Source of the DNA: a virus
Length of the DNA: 38,068 bases
Direction: 5' to 3' (one strand)
Virus record (IMG/VR): IMGVR_UViG_3300032313_001255
Location: 1-38,068 of that record
Shown here piece after piece: positions 6,664 through 32,743 of this stretch. The first letter of the stretch is position 1. Each line of letters begins with the position of its first letter. The notes beneath the pieces were generated by a model. The model was not told the DNA's origin. It made no database searches and was given only the letters and a program-made list of their open reading frames with translations. A program made the position numbers and the translations under genes.

Positions 6664-8373
6664 CTATCCATCACAAGAAACGCAATCTACAGTACGAGAT
6701 CCAAGATCTCCTTTAATTACTGAGTCAGTGCGTAGATAGTATAGTGTTTTGATTCCAAGCTTCCACGCCTCCATGTGAACCTGATTAATCCATTTTGGTG
6801 AATCTGTTGGGTCAAATGATACGTTTAGTGATTGGGTTTGGTCAATATAGCGTTGACGAGCAGCTGCTTGTTGAACTAGACCTAACTGATTGATTTCTGG
6901 GAAAGTCAAGAATACTTCTTTTTCTTCTTCACTTAAGATATCGTTAGATAGGTTTTGAACTGAACCATTGTCAGCCATAATTTGATCCCAAACTTTACTT
7001 AAGTTATATCCTTTTGCTTCTAGTACTTTTTCTAGTTCAGGATTTTTAACGATAAATGTTCCTTTAGCTCCGTTAAATACGTAAACGTTTGCTGGTTGGG
7101 GTTCAATACCTGCTGAACAGTTGCTAATACGTGAATTGGATACAGTTGGAGCGATTGCTAACAAGTGAGTGTTTCGCATTCCAGTACCTTTACACCAAAG
7201 TGGCTCACCATATTCCATTGCCATTTTACGGGAAGCTGCTTCGGCCTGCATTTTGATTTGGCTAAAGATAGTGTGTGTCCAGGCTGTTGAAGCGATTGAG
7301 TTGAATGGTAGATTCTTTTGTTGCAAGAATGTGTGCCAACCCATTACACCTAAACCAAGTGCACGACCCTTTTTAGCATGACGGTGTGAGCGAATCATAG
7401 ATTCTTTACCGTTTGTTTTCTGGATAAATTCTTCCATTACACCATCTAGAAAATAGATTGAGGTTTCAACCACATCTGTGTCTTTCCACTCATCGTACTT
7501 GGCTAGGTTTAAAGAAGACAAACAGCAAATAAATGAATGTTCTTCATCTGTGTGCAATGTAATTTCAGTACAGATGTTAGTCATGGAGACATCCAGGTTG
7601 TTCATTCGGTATGCTAAAGGATTATCTTTATTGATATTGTCCTTAAACATAATGTATGGTTCTCCGGTTTCTACGCGTGATTTAAGTATTTCCAACCACA
7701 ATGACATAGCCTCGCTGTCGCGATCATTTAAGCGCTTCATAAACGCATCATCTACAACTACACATTGGTGTAGGTTAAGACATTGACGATTTGGATCACC
7801 TTTTGGACGACGAATTTGCAAGAATTCTTTGATGTCTTTGTGGTTGATATCCAAGTTTACTGATGCTGCTCCTCTACGTACTGAACCTTGGTTAGTTGCG
7901 ATAATAGTTGAGTCATAAATCTTAGCCCAAGGTACTACTCCTTCAGATCTTCCATTTCCTGTGATGTTTTCTCCTCGTCCTCGGATTCGGCTAAGGGAAA
8001 TTCCCACACCACCACCGTACGAAGTAAGACGCATAAGTTCTGCGTTAGTAAGGCCAATACCTCTAACACTGTCTGGAGTATCAATTCCAAAACAGCTAAT
8101 AGGCAAACCACGATCAGTGCCGGTATTGCTGAGAACAGGGCTTGCCAATCCAATCCAACCATTCCAAATATATTTGAAGAATTTGTTTTCTAAATCGGGG
8201 CGATTTAAACGCGTTGCTACAGCATGTGCAACTCGTCTGTAAGCTTTTTTAGGTGTTTCACCTGGTAGTAAGTATCCTTTTGATATTGTTGAGAGTGATA
8301 CTTCATCAAAATATTCGGGATAGTCTTTACCACGTTCCCAAGTTGTAAAATCTGCTACTAAATTGTTATCCAT
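6664..8373 (-). CDS. nrdA: Ribonucleotide reductase large subunit, class I
   Basis: NrdA reduces ribonucleoside diphosphates to deoxynucleotides for phage DNA synthesis, working with NrdB. Active-site features are visible: C94 in PISCFGIDTP, N266-x-C268-x-E270 in TNICTEITL (the radical Cys triad), a partner Cys in FICCLSSLNL at 283-284, a Tyr pair in KTLYYLRT, and the C-terminal redox pair C564/C567 in VDCVSCDG. At 569 residues it is shorter than E. coli NrdA (761). No N-terminal ATP-cone is seen, so overall-activity inhibition by dATP is probably lost, as in other phage enzymes that work during large dNTP demand. It follows nrdB with a 12-base gap. Confidence 0.96.
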   Translation of the reverse strand: MDNNLVADFTTWERGKDYPEYFDEVSLSTISKGYLLPGETPKKAYRRVAHAVATRLNRPDLENKFFKYIWNGWIGLASPVLSNTGTDRGLPISCFGIDTPDSVRGIGLTNAELMRLTSYGGGVGISLSRIRGRGENITGNGRSEGVVPWAKIYDSTIIATNQGSVRRGAASVNLDINHKDIKEFLQIRRPKGDPNRQCLNLHQCVVVDDAFMKRLNDRDSEAMSLWLEILKSRVETGEPYIMFKDNINKDNPLAYRMNNLDVSMTNICTEITLHTDEEHSFICCLSSLNLAKYDEWKDTDVVETSIYFLDGVMEEFIQKTNGKESMIRSHRHAKKGRALGLGVMGWHTFLQQKNLPFNSIASTAWTHTIFSQIKMQAEAASRKMAMEYGEPLWCKGTGMRNTHLLAIAPTVSNSRISNCSAGIEPQPANVYVFNGAKGTFIVKNPELEKVLEAKGYNLSKVWDQIMADNGSVQNLSNDILSEEEKEVFLTFPEINQLGLVQQAAARQRYIDQTQSLNVSFDPTDSPKWINQVHMEAWKLGIKTLYYLRTDSVIKGDLGSRTVDCVSCDG

Positions 8374-21082: not shown

Positions 21083-23845
21083 TTATTGTAACCTACGAGC
21101 GTCTGTACTTAATGCTTGACCTACTCTTTGACCGTCTAGCATTATTATACTGCCTTTTTCAGTTGCATTTACTAGTCTTGTAAGTAATTGAATCATTTTT
21201 GGATCTGATCCTGTTAAGTTAGTACCACCTGCTACAATATCGTCTTTGCGGAATTTTTGAATTTTACCACCTTGCATGATAAAGTCTTCGGCTACATCAT
21301 CTCCACCTAATGCTTTTGCTAGTGGTGGTGCCAATGCTTTTTGAATAGCAGGTATGTTACCAATATAATCACCTATTAAACCACCTAAAGCCCCACCTGC
21401 AAAAGTTCCCACTACAGGGACAATAGAACCGGCTATACTCCCTAAAGAACCTCCTAAAATACTAGCCGCGAGAGGAATAATTTGTTCTGCTTTTTGTTGA
21501 GATGTTCCTTCACCAGCCATGATAGCTGCTAAATTACCTACATTAAGTAAAGCACCTATTAAACCACCTTTAACAGCTTTGCCTATAAATTTACCAGCAT
21601 TACTAACAAGTCCTTTTTTTAATGCACTTAATGGATTAATCCCCGATACAGCTTTACCTACACTACTAGCAGTACTTTTAAGTCCACTTCCAATTTTACT
21701 AAAGAAACCTCCACCTCCTCCTGCTGGGGATGTTGGAGTTTTAGTAAATCTACCTGTGGTGGGATCTCTAAATCTTCCTGTTTTAGGATCTCTTATAGGA
21801 CCTGATGATGGTCTACTGGTGCTTCCAGGGGTACTAGATCTACCAGGCATACCTGGTATGTTTGCTAATTGTACAAAAAGAGCTGAACTTGCTGAAGAAC
21901 CATCTCTTTTTAATCCAAACAAGCTCACTAAACCTTTAGCACCTTTAATTAATAAAGACCCACCTACAACTGCTCCTGTAGCTTTAATTAACCAAGGATT
22001 TTCTTTAATAAAGCCTACTATACTTTCAACCGCAGTTTTAATACCTTTAGCAAATCTTTCTGCTTTATCTGGAAGGGTATCCATAAATTCTTTACCAGCG
22101 GGTCCAGAAACCCAATCTACCATGGGTTTAACAACTAAACCAGTAAATAATCCTGTTAATGTTTCTTTTATTTTATTAAAAGTATCTTGTAATTTTTGAA
22201 CTAAAGGTGCTAATGTAGTATAATATTTTATAGAAGCTTCTTGTTTAGATCTTTCAAGGTTAGCATTTTTTTCTGCTTCAGAAACACCTGACATCATGGC
22301 TTTTAATCCATCTTGTTGACCATCTACTAAATCACCTTGAGTACTTAAATTACCTTTTTGAGCATCTAACATGCCTGCTAACTCACCACGAGATAAACCA
22401 ATAGATTTAGCGAATGCCTCTTGTTGGATAACATTCATTCTATTAAATTCTTCTATAGAACCTAATTGTGAAGCTATCTCGCTTTGTAAAGTAGCGGTAT
22501 CTCCAGCTAAAGCTGCTTCTCTTGCTTTTTCTAAGTTAAGTTGTTTACCAGTTAAAAGTTCAGCTTCCATTTCAGCAGCAATTGAATCTTCAAAATTCAA
22601 TAAACTACTTGCAATATCTTCAATTTTGTTCATCTCAATACCTAAAGCTTTAGCTTTAGCTACTGATTCTACTAAAGCTTTTGGTTGGTCCCTAAAACGA
22701 AGTCTAATAACACTAGAAACATTAGCTACATCATTTAATAAACTTTTCTGACTAAACGCGAATTTATTAGTTTTAATAGTTTCTAACGCGGTTTGAGCCA
22801 TATTAGTAACTAATACTCCAGCGTCTTGCCCTGATAATTTAGCAAATTTTTGGAAGCTGGCTAAAGACTCAGCAGACATACCCGCAAAAGTACTTAACTT
22901 AACAAATACTTTTAAGGTATTGTTTGATAACTTTTCAGTTGAACCTAGAGCTGAGTATAATCCGTTTATAGCTTCTTTTGAAGCTGCTATAGTTGGACCT
23001 ATTCCAGCTACAGATCCTGCTAGTTTAGAGGCGGCACCTTGAGCTAAACCTAAACTTCTAGCAATGTTAGTATTTTCATCACTTATTCGTTCAGCTGCTA
23101 TTTTACCTTCTTCGTATCCTTTTTTTACAAAGTTAAAAGCAGATTTTAAACCTTTTATAGCTAACCCACCTAAAACTAAAGGATCTACTAAATTTTTAAG
23201 TATTTCTTTACCTACTACTTTAAAAGCAGCACCCATAGTTTTAACTTTTCCAATAAGACCTAATGATCTAGTTTCAGAAACGCCTAATGCTTTTGCTTTT
23301 TCAATTGCTGCTTCTCTAGCTTCTTCAAAAACGTCTGCAAATCCACTTAAACCTATCTTAGAAGCAATCTTAGAAATGCCCGAAATAGCACTTCCAGTAA
23401 GACCTATACTAGTATTAAGATTTTTAGAGAATTTAAGTTGTTTTTGTAGTTCTTGTTCGTATTCTTGGTTATACTTTAAAACTTGTTCGTATTCTTTATT
23501 AAGTTGTTTAATATTTCCAACTCCACTTCTTTGAGCAATCCCAATTTGTGCTTGAATAGTTGCTAATTTAGCATTTCTTTCTTGAATTTCTTTTGTAACA
23601 TTTTTTTGAGTTAAAAGACCTTTATTAGCTTTCTCAAAATTAATTGCTATATCTCTACTAACTCTAGATAAAGAATTAAAAGATGACTGAACATCTCTAA
23701 CCATAGTTTTAGAAACACCTTCTCCTTTACTGAGAGCTTCTGTAAAATAGTCTCCAATCTTGGAGGATATACTACGGAACGCATCCTCGACTACTTGAGC
23801 CGTTTCTTTTGCTTCCTTTTTTATTCTATCAGATTGTTCAGCCAT
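21083..23845 (-). CDS. Tail tape measure protein
   Basis: This 920-residue protein has a long N-terminal helical, coiled-coil region (SDRIKKEAKETAQVVEDAFR, then the Gln/Tyr/Lys-rich stretch EYEQVLKYNQEYEQELQKQL) and hydrophobic helices in the middle and end (about 225-245, WLIKATGAVVGGSLLIKGAK, GLIGALLNVGNLAAIMAG, and the Gly/Ala/Ile-rich ILGGSLGSIAGSIVPVVG). Size, composition and place after the gp26-like gene fit the tape measure (T4 gp29 role), which sets tail length and crosses the host membrane during DNA entry. If the usual 1.5 angstrom per residue holds, the tail is near 130-140 nm. No lytic domain is evident. A Gly/Ser/Pro/Thr-rich linker lies near residues 670-710. Confidence 0.85.
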   Translation of the reverse strand: MAEQSDRIKKEAKETAQVVEDAFRSISSKIGDYFTEALSKGEGVSKTMVRDVQSSFNSLSRVSRDIAINFEKANKGLLTQKNVTKEIQERNAKLATIQAQIGIAQRSGVGNIKQLNKEYEQVLKYNQEYEQELQKQLKFSKNLNTSIGLTGSAISGISKIASKIGLSGFADVFEEAREAAIEKAKALGVSETRSLGLIGKVKTMGAAFKVVGKEILKNLVDPLVLGGLAIKGLKSAFNFVKKGYEEGKIAAERISDENTNIARSLGLAQGAASKLAGSVAGIGPTIAASKEAINGLYSALGSTEKLSNNTLKVFVKLSTFAGMSAESLASFQKFAKLSGQDAGVLVTNMAQTALETIKTNKFAFSQKSLLNDVANVSSVIRLRFRDQPKALVESVAKAKALGIEMNKIEDIASSLLNFEDSIAAEMEAELLTGKQLNLEKAREAALAGDTATLQSEIASQLGSIEEFNRMNVIQQEAFAKSIGLSRGELAGMLDAQKGNLSTQGDLVDGQQDGLKAMMSGVSEAEKNANLERSKQEASIKYYTTLAPLVQKLQDTFNKIKETLTGLFTGLVVKPMVDWVSGPAGKEFMDTLPDKAERFAKGIKTAVESIVGFIKENPWLIKATGAVVGGSLLIKGAKGLVSLFGLKRDGSSASSALFVQLANIPGMPGRSSTPGSTSRPSSGPIRDPKTGRFRDPTTGRFTKTPTSPAGGGGGFFSKIGSGLKSTASSVGKAVSGINPLSALKKGLVSNAGKFIGKAVKGGLIGALLNVGNLAAIMAGEGTSQQKAEQIIPLAASILGGSLGSIAGSIVPVVGTFAGGALGGLIGDYIGNIPAIQKALAPPLAKALGGDDVAEDFIMQGGKIQKFRKDDIVAGGTNLTGSDPKMIQLLTRLVNATEKGSIIMLDGQRVGQALSTDARRLQ

Positions 23846-23887: not shown

Positions 23888-24181
23888 TTACTTTTTTGAT
23901 ACATTTGTAACATAACTAGGAACCTGTACTTTTTGAGATTGATTACCAGCTGATTTAATATTTTTGATAGATTCAGCCATGTTATTATCTGTACTTGATT
24001 TAGACTCTTCATCATACCATTTCTTAAGTTTATTGTAAGTAAATGTGCGAAGAGCTAAAGGCATGTTATAGATTGTATACCAATCATAACCGCCTTTACC
24101 ATGAAATACTATTTCGTGTATTTGACTAAATAAGTTATTCCTATAATGGAATGCTTCCTCAGATGTCAGGGAAAAAAAAGT
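23888..24181 (-). CDS. Frameshift extension of the gp26-like protein (possible gp51/chaperone counterpart)
   Basis: An open frame of 97 codons starts without any ATG, just after an in-frame TAA at 24184-24182. It overlaps the last codons of the gp26-like gene in the +1 frame. Its protein reads FFSLTSEEAFHYRNN, then HEIVFHGKGGYDWYTIYNMP, LRTFTYNKLKKWYDEE, and a polar tail ending YVTNVSKK. The well-formed Gly/Trp/Tyr block lies before the first ATG (24064), so translation must begin upstream, most simply by a ribosome slipping on the T8 run at 24172-24179. In T4, gene 51 (baseplate hub assembly) directly follows gene 26. In many other phages a frameshifted tail assembly chaperone sits just before the tape measure, which is also the case here. 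A sequencing error in the T-run is the main alternative. Confidence 0.65.
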   Translation of the reverse strand, partial: TFFSLTSEEAFHYRNNLFSQIHEIVFHGKGGYDWYTIYNMPLALRTFTYNKLKKWYDEESKSSTDNNMAESIKNIKSAGNQSQKVQVPSYVTNVSKK

Positions 24182-24908
24182 TTATTCCAATCGGAACTTC
24201 TATTTCAACTGATTCACCATCAACTTCAATGAATGTATTTAAGTCAATATCTGGCTGAATATCTCGAATATATTCCCTTAGTGCTCTAGAGTCTCGAGCT
24301 AATAAATAATTATCTATAAAATCACGAATTGGTTTAGTATCTGAATCTCCTTCAACTGAAGTAATAATATACTTTAAACGAGTAGTTAAATCAGAAGAGA
24401 AATTTTTATTTACTTTCTTTAAACCTTTAATTTCGGCGTCAATTTTATTTTCTAAATGACCATCCATTAATCTAAAGGTAATCTTTGTACCTGAATGGGG
24501 TAAAGTATAATGGAACTCGTTAACACCTTTGCTAAATAGGACCTCATTTAAAGGTTTATTTTCTAAAGTAGATAAATCTACAGTTTGTTCTACACCACTA
24601 TAAGTAAATGAGTAGTCTTTACCATAACCTAAAATACGAGAAGCAATTAAGATTGCGTTTTTATCCCCAATAAGTAAATCATTATAATCAAACTTAGTAA
24701 TTATAAGTGATTGAAGAAGTTTATCCAATACTGTACCGTTAGCAATATAGTTTTGATTAGTTAGAATGTCTTCTTCTCTAGCTGTCATGTACTTCATTTC
24801 GATAGTACCATTAGATAAAGGATGACCTTCGGGGTACAGTATACCTTTAGAGGGTAACTCGATTGTTTCTGTTGGGAATTTGAATGGGGATGGGTCTTGT
24901 TGTTCCAT
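24159..24908 (-). CDS. Baseplate hub protein, gp26-like (T4_baseplate family)
   Basis: The 249 residues include ETIELPSKGILYPEGHPLSN near residue 15, then MKYMTAREEDILTNQNYI, LLQSLIITKFDYNDLLIGDK and AILIASRILGYGKDYSF. This is the pattern of the T4 gp26-type baseplate family (P-S-K-G-x-x-Y-P, then a T-x-R-E-E-D block). It would act in building the central hub or in tail assembly. The reading frame ends INFFFPDI-stop at 24159, just after the run CTTTTTTTTCCC. The next open frame (23888-24181) has no start codon, suggesting that some ribosomes shift +1 (or -2) and make a longer product. The gene follows a strong terminator and a variant of the recurrent promoter motif. Confidence 0.82.
   Translation of the reverse strand: MEQQDPSPFKFPTETIELPSKGILYPEGHPLSNGTIEMKYMTAREEDILTNQNYIANGTVLDKLLQSLIITKFDYNDLLIGDKNAILIASRILGYGKDYSFTYSGVEQTVDLSTLENKPLNEVLFSKGVNEFHYTLPHSGTKITFRLMDGHLENKIDAEIKGLKKVNKNFSSDLTTRLKYIITSVEGDSDTKPIRDFIDNYLLARDSRALREYIRDIQPDIDLNTFIEVDGESVEIEVPIGINFFFPDI
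24172..24179 (-). promoter_or_regulatory. T8 slippery run, candidate programmed frameshift site
   Basis: In the gp26 frame the codons are AAC-TTT-TTT-TTC-CCT-GAC-ATC-TGA. Moving +1 (or -2) in the T8 run gives TTT-TTT-TCC-CTG-ACA and continues for about 95 codons in the extension frame. Homopolymer runs near the end of a short gene just before the tape measure are the usual setting for tail-chaperone frameshifts. -1 would not join these frames. Confidence 0.55.
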
Positions 24909-25037: not shown

Positions 25038-25526
25038 TTAGAAGTTTAATACACAGTAATCCATAGCTACTTCAACAGTAAGGTTTTGAGCAGCTGATTC
25101 ATTATCCCAGTTGTATTCACCAAAGTTTGAGTTAACAATGAACGCACCTTTGATTACCCATTCTGAAACAATATCACCTACAGGGCCTAAAATGTCAATA
25201 GTTAAATCCTTCTTGTAGAAATCAGAGTAACCATCCCTACCAGTTACAGATTCGTGGTGTAAACGTACCCACTCCATTACAGCTTGGGCGCCTGAAGGAG
25301 TAATTGGGTCAAATAATGTCATTGTAACATTACCCCATTTTGATTTACCTTTTACTTTTCTGTAAACGTTAATATGGTTAAGAACGATTTCATCTTGCGT
25401 TAAAGTAACAGCTGAGATTGCTTTAATTGTATAAGATGGAATACCATCTACATACATGATAAATCTATTCTGCTGTTTTGGTTCAAACGCTGTGAAAAAA
25501 ATTTCGTTTGGATCTAATACTGCCAT
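25038..25526 (-). CDS. Tail tube protein, gp19-like
   Basis: The 162-residue length matches T4 gp19 (163). The sequence is beta-rich with family-like blocks: PKQQNRFIMYVDGIPSYTIK near the start, a middle VTMTLFDPITPSGAQAVMEW and WVRLHHESVTGRDGYS, and a C-terminal GEYNWDNESAAQNLTVEVAM segment. Such subunits stack as hexameric rings forming the tube through which DNA passes. It follows the sheath gene, as in T4, and is itself followed by a strong terminator. A copy of the recurrent promoter-like motif lies between sheath and tube, so each can be transcribed separately. Confidence 0.92.
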   Translation of the reverse strand: MAVLDPNEIFFTAFEPKQQNRFIMYVDGIPSYTIKAISAVTLTQDEIVLNHINVYRKVKGKSKWGNVTMTLFDPITPSGAQAVMEWVRLHHESVTGRDGYSDFYKKDLTIDILGPVGDIVSEWVIKGAFIVNSNFGEYNWDNESAAQNLTVEVAMDYCVLNF

Positions 25527-25571: not shown

Positions 25572-27293
25572 TTACGCTGGGAAAGTTGCTCCAGTTGGTA
25601 AGATGTTGAAGTCTAGATAAATGAATTCAGCAGTCTTAGTTGGTTGGATGTAGATCTGACCTACTAACTGGTTTCTATCAATTACATCAGCAGTATTGTT
25701 AGAATCGTCCATAATTACTTTGAACGCGTACAGACCTTGACGTTGCTGTACTGATTCAAGATATGGGTTAACTTGGCTTAAGAATTGGTTTCTTGTAGCA
25801 ATTGTGTTTTGTTCAAACACTAAGTTATTAGCTACTTGAGAAATGTATGACTTAAGGGCAATTAACAATCTTCTTACATTTACTCTATCAAGAGCAGATG
25901 CTTGTTTTTGTAGAGTTTTCTGACCATATACTACAGTACCAGTTCCTGGGAAGGTAGCAATTGGATTTACATTACCTGAATATAAGCTATCACGGCTTGA
26001 TTGAGGAAGTTTTTGTTCGGCTCTAATTACATTGGATAAACCACCTCTGTTAATACCCGCAGGTGCAAACCAAGGCTCACTTACGCTGTCGTTGAAGGCA
26101 TAAACACCACCAATCATTGTAGAAGCAGGTACCCATACTCTCTGACCTGAATCTGGGTCAACTGTTTGAACCCACGGCCAGTAAGTTGCAGCGTAAGAAG
26201 TATTACGAGTTGAAGCAGCTGTTACAGCATTTCCTACAGTTGAGTTGTATGGATTTTGATCTACAACATAGATACTATCACCTCTATTTTGAGTATTTGA
26301 AATGATTGAAGTTACTGTAGAAGCAAAAGCACCAGAATCAATTAGACCAGGAGTTAGGATTACATTAAATCTGTAGTCGTCTTGGTTAGCTAACAAATTA
26401 ACCATGTTAGTGTAGTTAGTTCCAATTAAACCTTGTGTATTAGCAACCCCAGCTATAATCTCATTATAGTATTTGTTACCTGAAGTAAGTTCCATACTAC
26501 CAGTAGCGTTACTAAATGAACCACTAGCTACAACTGGAATTGAACTTGTGAAAGCGTTTTTAGCTACACCATTATTATCAAAGTAGAATGGGGTTGCATT
26601 ATTTACTGATTTAACTCTTACATATCTAGATTGGTTAGTGTATGAACCAGATATTGTTACTTGGTTAAGAGTTGAGTTGTAGTTTTGAACGGAATCACCA
26701 ATTACAGCAGCTACGAAGTTTGCAGCAGTTGGGTCTAATGATAGATTAGTCCAAGTTTCAAGTACAATTGGGTTATCAGTATTATCATTACCTTGTCTAA
26801 TTAATAGATCAAATGTACCTGAAGAAGTATTTGGATTAACAATTTGCCATCTAATATTATCAACTGAGCCGCTGATTAAGGCACCACTTGTATCTAAAGC
26901 ACCTGAGCTGTTCATTAGAGCACCCTTAGAAAGGGTTTCAAGAACAAAAGCAGGTTGAGACGAAGCTAGTGTACTTGAACTAATGGCTGTACTAACAGCA
27001 GAAGTATAAGATCCACTAACAACTCTAGCTACTAATAAACTTTGACCACCATTATTGAAGTAGTTGTAAGCGGCAATAGAAGTAAAGTAAGTGTAAACAC
27101 CACTACCACTTAGAAAAGTTGTTCCAAAAGTGCTTTGATATTGAGAATAAGAAGTAATAATAGTTGGAACTTCAACAGGACCCTTAACTGTAGGTCCTAT
27201 AATAGCTGCACCAACTGTTATTGGTTGAGATGTAACTTGAGATTGATCGTTCTCTCTCGCTAATACTCCTGGTGAAATTAAAGTTTCTGCCAT
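25572..27293 (-). CDS. Contractile tail sheath protein, gp18-like
   Basis: The 573-residue sheath subunit starts MAETLISPGVLARENDQSQV. The SPGV-x-x-x-E block is the usual sheath N-terminus, followed by TVGAAIIGPTVKGPVEVPTI and a Tyr/Phe/Asn segment (FTSIAAYNYFNNGGQSLLVA) characteristic of phage sheath domain I. The C-terminal third (LDRVNVRRLLIALKSYIS, then FNILPTGATFP) is the conserved part that forms the contractile scaffold. It is somewhat shorter than T4 gp18 (659). Contraction drives the tube through the host envelope. It is the first gene of the tail module and has a promoter-like motif directly upstream. Confidence 0.93.
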   Translation of the reverse strand: MAETLISPGVLARENDQSQVTSQPITVGAAIIGPTVKGPVEVPTIITSYSQYQSTFGTTFLSGSGVYTYFTSIAAYNYFNNGGQSLLVARVVSGSYTSAVSTAISSSTLASSQPAFVLETLSKGALMNSSGALDTSGALISGSVDNIRWQIVNPNTSSGTFDLLIRQGNDNTDNPIVLETWTNLSLDPTAANFVAAVIGDSVQNYNSTLNQVTISGSYTNQSRYVRVKSVNNATPFYFDNNGVAKNAFTSSIPVVASGSFSNATGSMELTSGNKYYNEIIAGVANTQGLIGTNYTNMVNLLANQDDYRFNVILTPGLIDSGAFASTVTSIISNTQNRGDSIYVVDQNPYNSTVGNAVTAASTRNTSYAATYWPWVQTVDPDSGQRVWVPASTMIGGVYAFNDSVSEPWFAPAGINRGGLSNVIRAEQKLPQSSRDSLYSGNVNPIATFPGTGTVVYGQKTLQKQASALDRVNVRRLLIALKSYISQVANNLVFEQNTIATRNQFLSQVNPYLESVQQRQGLYAFKVIMDDSNNTADVIDRNQLVGQIYIQPTKTAEFIYLDFNILPTGATFPA

Positions 27294-27386: not shown

Positions 27387-28586
27387 TTAATAAATATTAA
27401 GTACTTTTTGTAGAGATTTTATTACCATCTCAGGTGTGATAGATTTTGTACATTCAAAATGTCTTGGAGTGTTTTTATGTTCTGGACACCATTCCCAATC
27501 TCCTGGGTTGAGCCACTCATGGTTAAAACATCCTGAGCAAAATCCTGACGGAGTATAAATACGTTCACAGTCTTCAAATTCACTGTATGGTTCTGAGAAG
27601 CCTGAGATTAGGATTGTTTTTTGCCCTACAGCCCAAGATACCCAACTTAAGCCACTACCTACACCAATGAATGCATCTGCATGCACTATGTCACTCATCC
27701 TGCCTTCTAGTGGGAGTTTACCTGTTTTATTAACAACATTTTTAAGTGTACCACCTAGTTTAGAGTCATGCCATGCATCCCCTAAAGGTTCACTAGTTAA
27801 CATAAGTGTTTTATAACCATTATCTTTTAACCAGTCTATAACACGTTGCCAACCACCTGGATAGTTCCAATACTTAGCATGAGCTGAAGCATGGGGTGCT
27901 ATTACAACATATTTATCTTTTATAGGTTTTGGTTTTTTATTAAAGAATACTTTAGGTTTAGTTTCAATGTACTCTAGACCTAAAATGTCTGATGAGGTTT
28001 TACCTAAAGGTATATTTTTAAACTCAGTAACATTTTTATTTAGGTTTACTTTATGGTCTTCATCATAAAACCAACCTACATTGTACATAGCATATATGTC
28101 ACTTACTTGAGTACCTGGTTTTACAAATTTAATTTCTGGATATGTTTTAATAAACCAGTTATTATGGAAGGTAGAAGTTATAACTTCACAGTTATGTTTT
28201 TTTCTAAATTCATCTATAAATGGGAACCAAGCTAAAGTATCACCTACTGCTGTTGAATCCATATGAATATAAACTCTTTTTCTAGTAGCATCATATCTAT
28301 GTTCAAAAACTAATTCATTAGTTGTTAAGTCAAAGACTTGTATTAACCATTCTGTAAAATATTGACGGTTAGATTTAGTCCACATATTATTTGATATGAT
28401 AGACTCATGAACTACCTCATTTGTTCTTTGATCTGTAAATACAGTCCTATATTGACGCTCTTCAGGACCTAAAATTTCTAAAAAAGCACCTTCAACAAAA
28501 TGAAAGGTGAATCTATTTTCAGGTTCTCTAAAAGGCAAGTGAAGTGGTTTCACATTATCATATATTTTCTTCAAAACTTCTTTCAT
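27387..28586 (-). CDS. Putative protein O-heptosyltransferase of the TibC/Aah type (GT9-like)
   Basis: These 399 residues resemble bacterial autotransporter heptosyltransferases (TibC/Aah), which add sugars to Ser residues of secreted adhesins. The GT-B core shows VVIAPHASAHAKYWNYPGGW, then TLMLTSEPLGDAW and DAFIGVGSGLSWVSWAVG. The C-terminal block has GFCSGCFNHEW, then WCPEHKNTPRHFECTK. Its four Cys (C-x2-C, then WCP and ECTK) match the iron-binding Cys set described for TibC. The donor sugar is unknown. The gene is last in a four-gene operon beginning downstream of the collagen-like fibre, whose many Ser and Thr residues are obvious targets. It overlaps the GT4 gene by 29 bases. Modification of another phage or host protein remains possible. 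Confidence 0.8.
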   Translation of the reverse strand: MKEVLKKIYDNVKPLHLPFREPENRFTFHFVEGAFLEILGPEERQYRTVFTDQRTNEVVHESIISNNMWTKSNRQYFTEWLIQVFDLTTNELVFEHRYDATRKRVYIHMDSTAVGDTLAWFPFIDEFRKKHNCEVITSTFHNNWFIKTYPEIKFVKPGTQVSDIYAMYNVGWFYDEDHKVNLNKNVTEFKNIPLGKTSSDILGLEYIETKPKVFFNKKPKPIKDKYVVIAPHASAHAKYWNYPGGWQRVIDWLKDNGYKTLMLTSEPLGDAWHDSKLGGTLKNVVNKTGKLPLEGRMSDIVHADAFIGVGSGLSWVSWAVGQKTILISGFSEPYSEFEDCERIYTPSGFCSGCFNHEWLNPGDWEWCPEHKNTPRHFECTKSITPEMVIKSLQKVLNIY

Positions 28587-29517
28587 ATAACTTTATTAAT
28601 TCAGTTGTTCTATTATACCAATCTAATTCTTTAGCTGTTTCTAATGCTTTAGATTTATAAAATTCAAAATTTTTCATTATATCCTGTAGACCAACATTCA
28701 TTTCAAATATGTCACGAGGTGCTCTCCAAGCACCATGGAATACAGTATTATGTTCCCAATCGGCGATTATAGGTAAACCCGCAGCTGCTGCTTCAGCCAT
28801 TGTTAGATTTGGATGACCTGCTTCCAACATTGTAGGATGAATAAAGATATCATGTTGGTGATATAATTTTAGTAACTTACTATTAGGAGTATCATAAACA
28901 ATTTTTAGTTTAGGATAAGTTAATGTCCAAGGATTTTCATTAAAGAAATGTCTATTATTATAAGGGCCAGCTACTGTAATTTCTAAATTATTTAAAGCAG
29001 CTAACCCAACACCAAAACTAAATCCTTTCCTATCAAAACCTGGATCACCTGCTAATCCATTATTAGCTATCATTAATAGTTTAGGTTTTGTAGGGGTTGG
29101 TTTTTCTATAGGATAGAATTCATAATTATTAACTCCATGAGCAAAATATTGTACTTTAGGGTGATCAAAATAATCTACTAAATATCTTGCTGGGACTAAT
29201 GATAGAATAGATCCTTCTATTGCTTTAAGGTTCTGTTTGTAAACATGACTATCTTTTCCGTAATGATAAGCATGGTGGTCATGAAGTTGGAATACATAAG
29301 GTATTTCTCTTTCTTGAAGCATTAAAGCTAGATTACCAACATGACAGTGAACAATATCAAAATCATTAGGGTTAATTTCAGTTGCAAATTTGATTTCCGA
29401 CTCATGACCTTGTTTTAAAAAATTTTGATGAAACTCCCATACGATCTTTTCAATCGCACCCCAATCTTTAGGTGGAACATCTATTCCACATGCAGGATGT
29501 ACTTGACAAATTCTCAT
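28558..29517 (-). CDS. Glycosyltransferase family 4 protein
   Basis: The 319-residue GT-B glycosyltransferase shows an N-terminal MRICQVHPACGIDVPPKDWG with an early Gly-rich acceptor loop. Further on it has DIVHCHVGNLALML, PKLLMIANNGLAGDPGFDRK (start of the donor-binding domain) and DIFIHPTMLEAGHPNLTMAE, where the E-A-G-x-P-x-x-x-x-E pattern is the usual donor-binding E-x7-E block. It transfers a nucleotide-sugar residue, probably extending a glycan. Four bases overlap the methyltransferase gene upstream and 29 bases overlap the O-heptosyltransferase-like gene downstream, so these are made together. The acceptor cannot be read from sequence. Confidence 0.85.
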   Translation of the reverse strand: MRICQVHPACGIDVPPKDWGAIEKIVWEFHQNFLKQGHESEIKFATEINPNDFDIVHCHVGNLALMLQEREIPYVFQLHDHHAYHYGKDSHVYKQNLKAIEGSILSLVPARYLVDYFDHPKVQYFAHGVNNYEFYPIEKPTPTKPKLLMIANNGLAGDPGFDRKGFSFGVGLAALNNLEITVAGPYNNRHFFNENPWTLTYPKLKIVYDTPNSKLLKLYHQHDIFIHPTMLEAGHPNLTMAEAAAAGLPIIADWEHNTVFHGAWRAPRDIFEMNVGLQDIMKNFEFYKSKALETAKELDWYNRTTELIKLYERSFEENI

Positions 29518-30104
29518 AGGTTTTTTTTAGCGTATATCATCCCTAGATTAGTATTTTTATGGATGTGTTCAAAATTTATATTATATCCGTTTTGACTAAA
29601 TTTTTCTAATATTTGAAGTATTTGATACCCATTATTATAGATGTCATGTACCTCTATAGCGTATTGTTTCACTTTGGTTAAGGTATCAATAGGCATGTTC
29701 AATAACAAGGGGTATTCCCAAAACTCAATATCAATTTTAGCAAAGTCTACTTTGTCTAAGTTAAACATATTGAGTATGGTTTGGAAATTAAAATGTTCAA
29801 ATTCAAACCTGTCACTGATATATCCTTTGATTAAGGAAGTATTTGAGTAGTATGCTAAATTTAATTTTAAGAGTTCAAATACAGGTGAGTCACATTCAAA
29901 AGAATAAACATGTTGTGCCCCTTTATCTAAAGCAAATCTACTAAAAACACCTACATTAGCCCCACAGTCTAAAACTATATCACCTTCTTTTATATCAAGA
30001 TCATACCTTGTATATTCTTGATCTTCCCAAATTTCTTTTTTTAGACCAAGTATCCAGTTTGGATCTTGATCTTCAAAGTAATAAAAATCATCAACTAAAA
30101 TCAT
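29514..30104 (-). CDS. FkbM-family SAM-dependent methyltransferase
   Basis: The 196 residues have a SAM-binding motif IVLDCGANVGVFSRFALDKG, the acidic strand-2 end VYSFECDSP, and FAKIDIEFWEYPLLLNMP, which is the K-I-D-I-E motif of the FkbM family. Members O-methylate sugars and antibiotics. Methylating the terminal sugar of a glycan would cap it. Overlaps of four bases with both neighbours (ATGA) show translational coupling with the glycosyltransferases. The protein is shorter than typical FkbM enzymes (about 230-280) but includes the whole core. Confidence 0.85.
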   Translation of the reverse strand: MILVDDFYYFEDQDPNWILGLKKEIWEDQEYTRYDLDIKEGDIVLDCGANVGVFSRFALDKGAQHVYSFECDSPVFELLKLNLAYYSNTSLIKGYISDRFEFEHFNFQTILNMFNLDKVDFAKIDIEFWEYPLLLNMPIDTLTKVKQYAIEVHDIYNNGYQILQILEKFSQNGYNINFEHIHKNTNLGMIYAKKNL

Positions 30105-32743
30105 TCTGTGGCGTATATTAAGGGGCTATTTTCATCTGTTCCTTTAAATTCTTGTTCTACAATAGAGAATCCAGGAAGATGTTTAGTATAAATTTTTTCA
30201 GCTGTTCCTACTCTTAATTTAGCTACATTACAAACCCATAAATCAAAAGCGTCCCAAGGTGTTGAATTTACTAAATCTACTATTCTTTCTATTTTATTCT
30301 GATTAATTAAGTAAGATTGAGCTGGGACAAATGGTGTTACATCAGTATAAATGTCCTCTATTTTAGGTCCATTTAGGTTTCTGTTTTGCCATGGATTACC
30401 AAAACCAATAATATCCATGTCTGTTTCTTTAGCTAATCGGCTAAAGCGCTGAAGTGCACCGTATAATTCCGTGTAATCACTGTCTATAATAACGTCACCC
30501 TCAAATATTAGCACATAGTCGTACTCCTTATTGTCCGCGGTTAAAATGGCGTTTTTATGAGCTAGGTAACATCCGTAATGACCCGGGGCTAGCTTATAGT
30601 AACCTGGTTTATCTTGAACTTCAGTTGGTCTAGCACAGTTTTCTGATGGTGGGGTTTCTTTCCAAATCACATTTACTTGTTGTTCATATGCAATACCTGT
30701 TTTCTCACAGAAATCTTTTATATTCTCTATTGAGCGAATTTCTTTAGGATTATTTTCAGGGTCAGTTACTAGATGCATTAACTTAATTTTGTTAATGTTT
30801 GCTAGTTCTAAATAACCATTTCCTTCTAAATTATTTGTAGGTAATGTTTTTACCTCTATAAGTTTTTGACTAACCAAATCATAAATTTCAAATTTGATTT
30901 TTAAGTCTGGAATGTTAGGGAGAAGTTTATACCAATCTAGTTTACTAGTTACCTCTATAGAGTCTATAAGTTCTGTAGTATTATCTTGAATAGTGTAAAC
31001 TTTAATTATTTTAGTTTCTTTACTATTAGATATTCTAATGTAAGGAGCAATAGTATCAACTTTGTTAGTTGGTAATACTGTGTAATATTCTACTCTAGAA
31101 TAATCAGCGTGGTAGAATGTTTCTTCTATTTTAGAGTTAAAGACGTCTTCATCTTCATAATAGATTTCTTTTACGTTTTTAAAAGCATGGTACCATAAAT
31201 TTTCTAGACCGTTTGATTCACTACCCCATAGTTGTTGTAATTTATCATATTCTAAGGCATTATCTATTTGAGGTATAGTCTCTAAGAATACTTTAGTTCT
31301 AACACCCATAAAGAAAGTATAGATAGTATCTCCTTCAGCTGCTTTATATTTACCTACAAAAGCATTTTTAAGATACATCCAGATAGAAATTTGATCCAAA
31401 TAATCATTATCTTTTAAGATATAATCATAATTAAGTAGGTAAGCCACCTCATAACCTAAATTATCAGCTAAAGCAACTCCATTACGATAGTTTGTATAGA
31501 CTGTAGGGCCATGATAAATGTCATTGTCATTACCTCTTAAATTAACATGTACTTTGTATTCTGGGTATTGAGTCCAAAAGTTGCTATAATAAGTATGTTT
31601 AGTTAAGATGTTGTTTTTATCTACTACAACATAGTCAGCTAAATCAGCTAATTCCTCAGGTATAGGAATATGAGAGGTTAACATTATAGTTTTACCTTCT
31701 TTTTTTAAAGCCTCAACACATTGTTTAGTTGTTTGAGTAATTGAATCATTTATAGGATAAGTAGAAACTATAAAAATTTCCTTAATAGGAGCATCATTAA
31801 GATATGCTTTAATAAGGTTACAGTTTGCTTTAAAATCAGTAAAATCTAAATAATCTATATTATCAAATTGATTCCAATAGTTTAAGTAAACTGGAAGGTT
31901 ATAGATTAGAGTAGGCATTTTCCATGAAGTAGCTTCTCTAATTACTAGGGGCATTGTCTCTTTATCTGTATTTGTTCCTCTAGAGGTAAACAAAAACAAA
32001 TCCATTGCTGAATAGAATTTATCTACATCTGATCTTTCACCCCAAACATTAACATTTGAAGGCTTATTTTCCATTAATGGTTGCCAATAGTGTTGGAAGT
32101 TACCAGCTTGATTACCTACACAATGGAATTCATATTCAGGTAATGCTTTAGCATACTCAAAAAATTCAGCTTGGTTTTTGCGAGGAGTAAATAAACCAAT
32201 ATGTAAGATATGCTTTTTAGAGGGATCTAATCCTAGTTCTTCTAGAGCCTCTTTTCTATCAGGCCTTTCTTTATACTCAATAGGATAATAAACTATATCT
32301 TTAGGGATAAAAGTATCATATTGTTGGTTATGCCATTCTGAGATAAAGGCATAATGGTCTGGGAAGAATTGTTTTTGGTCTGGAGTAAATGAGCTATCAT
32401 GAGAAGTTTCAACTATAGAATAAGTTCTATCTTGACTATATAATTGTCTTGCTATAGAGGAATCCATAAAAAATTCAGGGAATTCTTCTAAATGGATAAC
32501 ATTAGGAGATATATCTTTGATTATGTCAAAAATTTTAGATTTATTTTCTCCTAACTCATAAAATTTATCTCCTAAAAGTTCAATAAGTTGATCTCGTTGT
32601 ACAACAAAAAGACCTCCACTATGATTGGACCATTCAATCAAGTGAATATCATACTCATTTATGAGTAATTGAATCTTTTTAAGAAGATATTGAGGTAAAC
32701 CCCCTGTAGATAGGTGAGGGGTTATGTATAATAACCTTTTCAT
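30101..32743 (-). CDS. Three-part glycosyltransferase: GT4-like, middle domain, GT25-like
   Basis: This 880-residue protein is modular. Residues about 1-320 form a GT-B/GT4-like unit (LLYITPHLSTGGLPQYLLKK, then HILHIGLFTPRKNQAEFFEY and the donor-site PLVIREATSWKMPTLIYN). Residues about 335-640 are a second domain I cannot name, starting IKEIFIVSTYPINDS and containing NLRGNDNDIYHGPTVY. Residues about 655-880 look like GT25 (LPS galactosyltransferase family, which also includes animal collagen galactosyltransferases): the Gly-Cys block APGHYGCYLAHKNAIL and VLIFEGDVIIDSD, with EGD at the D-x-D position. Two or more sugar-transfer steps in one chain are likely. It is first in the operon and closest to the collagen-like fibre. 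The GT25 link to collagen is family knowledge, not proof of the substrate. Confidence 0.78.
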   Translation of the reverse strand: MKRLLYITPHLSTGGLPQYLLKKIQLLINEYDIHLIEWSNHSGGLFVVQRDQLIELLGDKFYELGENKSKIFDIIKDISPNVIHLEEFPEFFMDSSIARQLYSQDRTYSIVETSHDSSFTPDQKQFFPDHYAFISEWHNQQYDTFIPKDIVYYPIEYKERPDRKEALEELGLDPSKKHILHIGLFTPRKNQAEFFEYAKALPEYEFHCVGNQAGNFQHYWQPLMENKPSNVNVWGERSDVDKFYSAMDLFLFTSRGTNTDKETMPLVIREATSWKMPTLIYNLPVYLNYWNQFDNIDYLDFTDFKANCNLIKAYLNDAPIKEIFIVSTYPINDSITQTTKQCVEALKKEGKTIMLTSHIPIPEELADLADYVVVDKNNILTKHTYYSNFWTQYPEYKVHVNLRGNDNDIYHGPTVYTNYRNGVALADNLGYEVAYLLNYDYILKDNDYLDQISIWMYLKNAFVGKYKAAEGDTIYTFFMGVRTKVFLETIPQIDNALEYDKLQQLWGSESNGLENLWYHAFKNVKEIYYEDEDVFNSKIEETFYHADYSRVEYYTVLPTNKVDTIAPYIRISNSKETKIIKVYTIQDNTTELIDSIEVTSKLDWYKLLPNIPDLKIKFEIYDLVSQKLIEVKTLPTNNLEGNGYLELANINKIKLMHLVTDPENNPKEIRSIENIKDFCEKTGIAYEQQVNVIWKETPPSENCARPTEVQDKPGYYKLAPGHYGCYLAHKNAILTADNKEYDYVLIFEGDVIIDSDYTELYGALQRFSRLAKETDMDIIGFGNPWQNRNLNGPKIEDIYTDVTPFVPAQSYLINQNKIERIVDLVNSTPWDAFDLWVCNVAKLRVGTAEKIYTKHLPGFSIVEQEFKGTDENSPLIYATE

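Follow-up and report, generated by a model that had tools for sequence, protein, structure and literature searches.

A locus in front of the putative tape measure gene of an uncultured phage raises the question of how a single gene could specify two proteins. We analysed a DNA stretch of 38,068 nucleotides (hereafter the window), in which a gp26-like gene is overlapped at its end by an open frame in the +1 register (Table 1). On the minus strand the gene ends with ...GGA ATA AAC TTT TTT TTC CCT GAC ATC TGA, where AAC to TGA spans 24182..24159, and it terminates shortly past a run of eight T residues (24179..24172). The window holds two other 8-base T runs (4663 and 29521), both with T on the plus strand. 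In the +1 frame, a TAA at 24184..24182 lies just 5'; the frame then runs through 97 sense codons (24181..23891) before it stops at 23890..23888. A preliminary description of this DNA had noted that the gp26-like frame ends just after the T run and that a 97-codon +1 frame begins inside it, which proved accurate when the coordinates were re-read. It had also placed the second frame directly before the tape measure gene; the two do adjoin, with a gap of 42 nt between the extension stop and the tape measure ATG at 23845. Its statement that the first 38 extension codons lack an ATG holds as well: the first +1-frame ATG occurs 38 codons into the extension, past a conserved block (read in the relative L013, whose extension protein is identical), and the window extension contains no ATG, GTG or TTG ahead of that block. 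The gene order of tail tube, chaperone locus and tape measure corresponds to the G/GT-type position. Elsewhere in the window, the large subunit of ribonucleotide reductase is encoded at 6664-8373 (phrog_84, E 1.4e-161). Several large genes lie upstream of the sheath gene (27387-32743): one weakly matches a glycosyltransferase (28558-29517), one matches a methyltransferase (29514-30104), and two encode long proteins for which PHROG gave no match.

Table 1. Features of the chaperone locus and its neighbours in the window.
Feature	Coordinates	Strand	Details or basis
gp26-like gene, short tail assembly chaperone	24159..24908	minus	249 aa, ATG to TGA
Slippery site TTT TTT TTC (0 frame)	24171..24179	minus	codon invariance in relatives
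+1-frame extension, ACT at 24181 to stop at 23888	23888..24181	minus	C-terminal domain of the predicted long chaperone
Putative tape measure gene, downstream	21083..23845	minus	position; immuto counterpart annotated tail tape measure protein; weak phrog_1047 match
Tail tube gene, upstream	25038..25526	minus	phrog_4542 tail tube, E=2.6e-23
Tail sheath gene, upstream	25572..27293	minus	phrog_23 tail sheath, E=1.7e-74

What is seen directly is a pair of conserved frames that overlap, a shift site that is conserved as well, one copy of each part and homology to known tail proteins. Judged from sequence, the locus is in all probability the tail assembly chaperone (TAC) of a T4-related contractile phage, which would be made in a short and a long form by means of a +1 slip.

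We compared the window to relatives obtained by scanning viral contigs, which yielded about 180 +1 loci (some contigs were fetched twice) and 122 after clustering. The +1 extension was found by tblastn in the Flavobacterium phage immuto (1e-8), in the 484-kb uncultured phage LR756508 (4e-6) and in the Microcystis phage Mel-JY01 (3e-6), and each match begins within the end of the first gene, in the +1 frame. An extension profile hits the +1 frame in all 81 loci of the window group, in 79 of 80 Mel-JY01-like loci, the remaining one being truncated, and in 16 of the 18 readable loci of the L003 group. Among cultured phages the arrangement is present in immuto and Mel-JY01 and in Bacillus phage SP-15, Listeria phage LIS04, Streptococcus phage GXN1 and Rhodothermus phage RM378; in the last four the +1 frame is likewise open at this junction, and their extension sequences are too diverged for confirmation by the profile. 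These four frames begin inside the gp26-like gene and extend 66-89 codons past its stop, where the annotation lists a short ORF (SP-15, RM378) or nothing. In immuto, annotation covers just part of the extension (L010:2354-2464), and in Mel-JY01 the extension is annotated as a separate overlapping hypothetical protein (L011:2237-2473). Routine annotation, which now lists extension fragments as small hypothetical ORFs in immuto, Mel-JY01 and SP-15, is corrected by this comparison. Six synonymous and no nonsynonymous changes separate the extension of the window from that of L013, the nearest relative (97% identical); the extension is thus coding beyond chance and, by this measure, under purifying selection. 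The -1 frame at the junction is short in nearly all members and the extension lies in +1, which does not agree with a lambda-type -1 shift on X_XXY_YYZ. The 0-frame stop is retained in every relative at varying distances from the site, so the stop codon is not part of the signal. A deeply conserved +1 programmed frameshift is, on these sequences, very likely real, and the comparison of about 180 loci supports the original proposal of a programmed shift that fuses a gp26-like protein to a gp51-type extension.

The shift site nearly always takes the form TTT-TTT-T(GG/AC/TC)-CCT. Across the 122 clustered loci, TTT TTT TGG CCT occurs 79 times, TTT TTT TAC CCT 15 times, TTT TTT TTC CCT, the type found in the window, 10 times and TTT TTT TGG CCA 6 times; TTC TTT TGG, TTT CTT TGG, CTT TTT TGG, TTC TTT TAC, TTT TTT TGG GTT and TTT CTA TTC are rare. 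Where the second codon encodes Phe it is TTT in 118 of 118 clustered relatives, which makes it rank 1 of 115 testable columns for synonymous invariance. The first codon is TTT in 115/120; over the rest of these genes, 77% of Phe codons are TTT. The frame relation is retained at the broken T runs TTC TTT TGG, TTT CTT TGG and TTT CTA TTC. A +1 move of tRNA-Phe (TTT_T or TTT_C) or of a Leu tRNA (CTT_T) would explain every one of these site forms; a Leu slip on CTT_T is known from the RF2 gene. Folding of the RNA upstream and downstream of the site gave no structural signal (mean z -0.4 to -0.7), and no Shine-Dalgarno-like stimulator is evident, such words being present in 35/122 clustered loci. 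The GXN1 site reads UUC_UUU_CGU_C, which resembles the known +1 site of influenza PA-X.

Four other explanations of the two frames have to be weighed against a +1 slip of the ribosome. The extension could be a separate gene, translated by internal initiation or by translational coupling at a non-ATG codon and never fused. We consider this very improbable, even though 95/122 relatives have an ATG, GTG or TTG in the +1 frame upstream of or early in the extension, and the uncultured relatives L268 and L273 carry it as an ORF with its own ATG. The remaining 27 of 122, including the clade of the window, have no such start between the upstream +1 stop and extension codon 20; start positions are unconserved, whereas TTT TTT T is conserved; and in most cases the QIHEIVFHGKGGY block, which is conserved, precedes the first ATG past the site. 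Moreover, T4 gp51 unites the N part and a C-terminal extra domain in a single protein. The preliminary description had held that relatives with a normal ATG for the second gene would speak against a fusion: L268 and L273 are of this kind, and their slippery codons are lost or changed. Still less probable is slippage of RNA polymerase on the T run, by which a message with one U deleted would encode the same protein as the +1 shift. Most members do have runs of T7-T8, but the arrangement is kept in immuto, L052, L233, L258-L267 and L003, where the runs comprise 3 or 4 T.

The direction of the shift had been given as +1 or -2. Ribosomes that move by -2, in the manner of phage Mu, would enter the same frame, and eight T residues permit both. 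A +1 move fits about 180 loci, while -2 misfits the variant sites: at TTC TTT TGG and TTT CTT TGG the P-site tRNA would be expected to pair badly after moving by -2, whereas +1 re-pairing on TTT_T, CTT_T or TTT_C should be good. We thus regard a -2 shift as extremely improbable. Finally, a homopolymer of eight in a metagenomic virus record might be suspected of a sequencing or assembly error that divides one gene into two frames or disturbs two normal genes. Phages that were cultured and sequenced independently show the same frame relation, as do sites lacking a long T run and also L013 and L014, which share the T8 of the window. The comparison of the T run across relatives that had been suggested at the outset therefore speaks against a read error: variants with interrupted runs keep the frame relation, which rules such an error out for practical purposes. 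The +1 ribosomal frameshift remains our strongly preferred reading.

We next consider the two protein parts, which were folded separately. The gp26-like N part matches the baseplate hub family phrog_150 (E=1.1e-7), shares 61.7% identity with its immuto homolog and yields an AlphaFold model with a pLDDT of 91. Its best match among solved structures is the HK97 tail assembly chaperone 2OB9, which is weak in Foldseek (E 0.45); re-alignment gave a Z of 5.0 and an rmsd of 6.8 over 86 residues, with the next PDB chain at Z 2.5. T4 gp26 (6.7e-71) and gp51 (2.6e-84) both belong to phrog_150 and also share PF12322, so T4 gp51 is a longer paralog of gp26, and this paralogy suggests that T4 genes 26 and 51 are themselves a short and a long chaperone. 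The preliminary description was right that T4 keeps two genes, which are, however, paralogs and not two unrelated genes. Its short and longer fused forms find support, though what it called a hub protein is better read as a tail assembly chaperone. The extension is predicted to form a small three-helix domain (model pLDDT 80). A search of BFVD with this model returned nothing below E 0.7, the second match being a 57-aa protein of phage pf16. Profile comparison aligns the extension to cyanophage gp51 with an HHalign probability of 94.6 (at most 3.8 for 40 column shuffles). Cyanophage gp51 in turn is bridged to T4 gp51 at a probability of 62; the T4 profile, with 458 columns, is longer than the protein, but the match covers 207-245 and thus falls within gp51 itself. 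A direct profile match of the extension to T4 gp51 was not obtained. Eight of 55 extension members match phrog_634, 'baseplate hub assembly catalyst' (best E 2.5e-4), which covers the C-terminus of T4 gp51 and the gp51 of cyanophage S-PM2. By these profile matches, the extension is a relative of cyanophage gp51 and, by way of the latter and phrog_634, may be related to the T4 gp51 C-terminus. One copy each of the N part and the extension is present in immuto, Mel-JY01, LR756508 and several contigs of 100-190 kb, and a separate gene for the long form was not found in these complete or long relatives. No route to a long form other than the shift is visible in them.

That ribosomes shift here, at which codon and how efficiently, and what the products do, we infer as follows. 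Most ribosomes would read the gp26-like frame through to the TGA and produce the short form. A minority would slip by +1 with tRNA-Phe on the second TTT of TTT TTT T and re-pair with TTT, most likely moving from the second TTT (24176..24174) to the TTT at 24175..24173, after which TCC (24172..24170) would be read. The resulting long form of about 340 residues (...NFFSLTSEEAF...) would carry the small helical C domain; for immuto the expected junction sequence is ...GVSFFGLTPEYR... Homology and position together point to a long tail assembly chaperone. If the roles are as in lambda G/GT, the N part common to both forms would be expected to coat the tape measure protein, and tail tube subunits would be brought in by the C domain of the less abundant long form. 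A simple UUU_U site without evident stimulator makes the locus a good target for studying +1 shifting in Bacteroidota and other hosts.

Other T4-type phages arrange the same parts differently. In cyanophages the gp26 gene ends with NNT TTT TTC, a textbook -1 heptamer, in every distinct junction, and gp51 lies in the -1 frame behind T_TTT_TTC at the Phe-Phe position, often without a start codon; the annotated gp51 starts are thus probably wrong. This holds for S-PM2 (L096:5130-5364) and L097-L176, in which the T_TTT_TTC that closes gp26 is invariant and gp51 follows in -1. In L268 and L273 the separate ORF has gained an N-terminal stretch and lies just downstream of a gp26-like gene starting at 1501, which indicates that not every lineage requires a fused form; as a derived pair, these two adjoin immuto in a tree with long branches and no outgroup. 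This unrooted tree, which does not fix the direction of change, separates the +1 forms from the -1 and duplicated forms. We lean, by a narrow measure, towards a scenario in which the Phe-Phe junction has been handled in at least three ways, by +1 recoding in a large branch with this phage, by -1 recoding in cyanophages and by duplication in T4, so that recoding would have changed direction with its product unaltered. T4 would then be a derived exception and not a phage that had always lacked frameshifting. If a conserved +1 site in T4-related phages is confirmed, the two-gene arrangement of T4 would look derived, and the +1, -1, duplicated and split forms, the last with its own ATG, provide a natural series for testing how recoding direction changes.

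Frameshifted tail assembly chaperones are already known, and the +1, Phe-codon version is a variant for which our literature search found no description, the content of Vladimirov et al. 2022 being taken from papers that cite it. A 2016 review describes G-T frameshifting as conserved in long-tailed phages 'except T4' (PMC5009743). Vladimirov et al. 2022, as represented in PMC10274946 and PMC12846349, already proposes the reading as a tail assembly chaperone for T4-like phages, and by its title puts forward a mechanism other than frameshifting. According to the same citing papers, some T4-like phages have separate short and long TAC genes (PMC10274946), and poly-T -1 signals are known in their TAC-N genes (PMC12846349), so the cyanophage -1 case may be known.

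The link between the T4 26/51 arrangement and lambda G/GT, drawn in the preliminary description, is borne out by comparison. The N part of T4 gp26 and gp51 is of the same family as ours, and gp51, an N part with a C-terminal domain, makes up a short/long pair with gp26; in T4, however, these are two separate, divergently placed paralogous genes, whereas here one gene is followed by a +1 extension. Cyanophages (Kyanoviridae, S-PM2) share the Phe-Phe junction and a homologous C domain encoded by a short gp51 directly downstream, but in the -1 instead of the +1 frame. Lambda G/GT and other frameshifted TACs likewise obtain two forms, one short and one long, through recoding immediately 5' of the tape measure gene, although lambda uses a -1 shift at a different heptamer (PMC5009743). 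In Vandenendeviridae, TAC-N and TAC-NC arise by frameshifting at a poly-T motif, in this case a -1 shift at GTTTTT (PMC12846349). Recoding by +1 is found in structural or tail genes of haloarchaeal HSTV-2 and of Listeria phage PSA; in the latter the tail shaft and capsid genes use a proline codon, either CCC_UGA or a CCC ahead of a pseudoknot (PMC5009743), whereas the shift in the window would take place on Phe UUU_U, in a chaperone gene and away from the stop codon.
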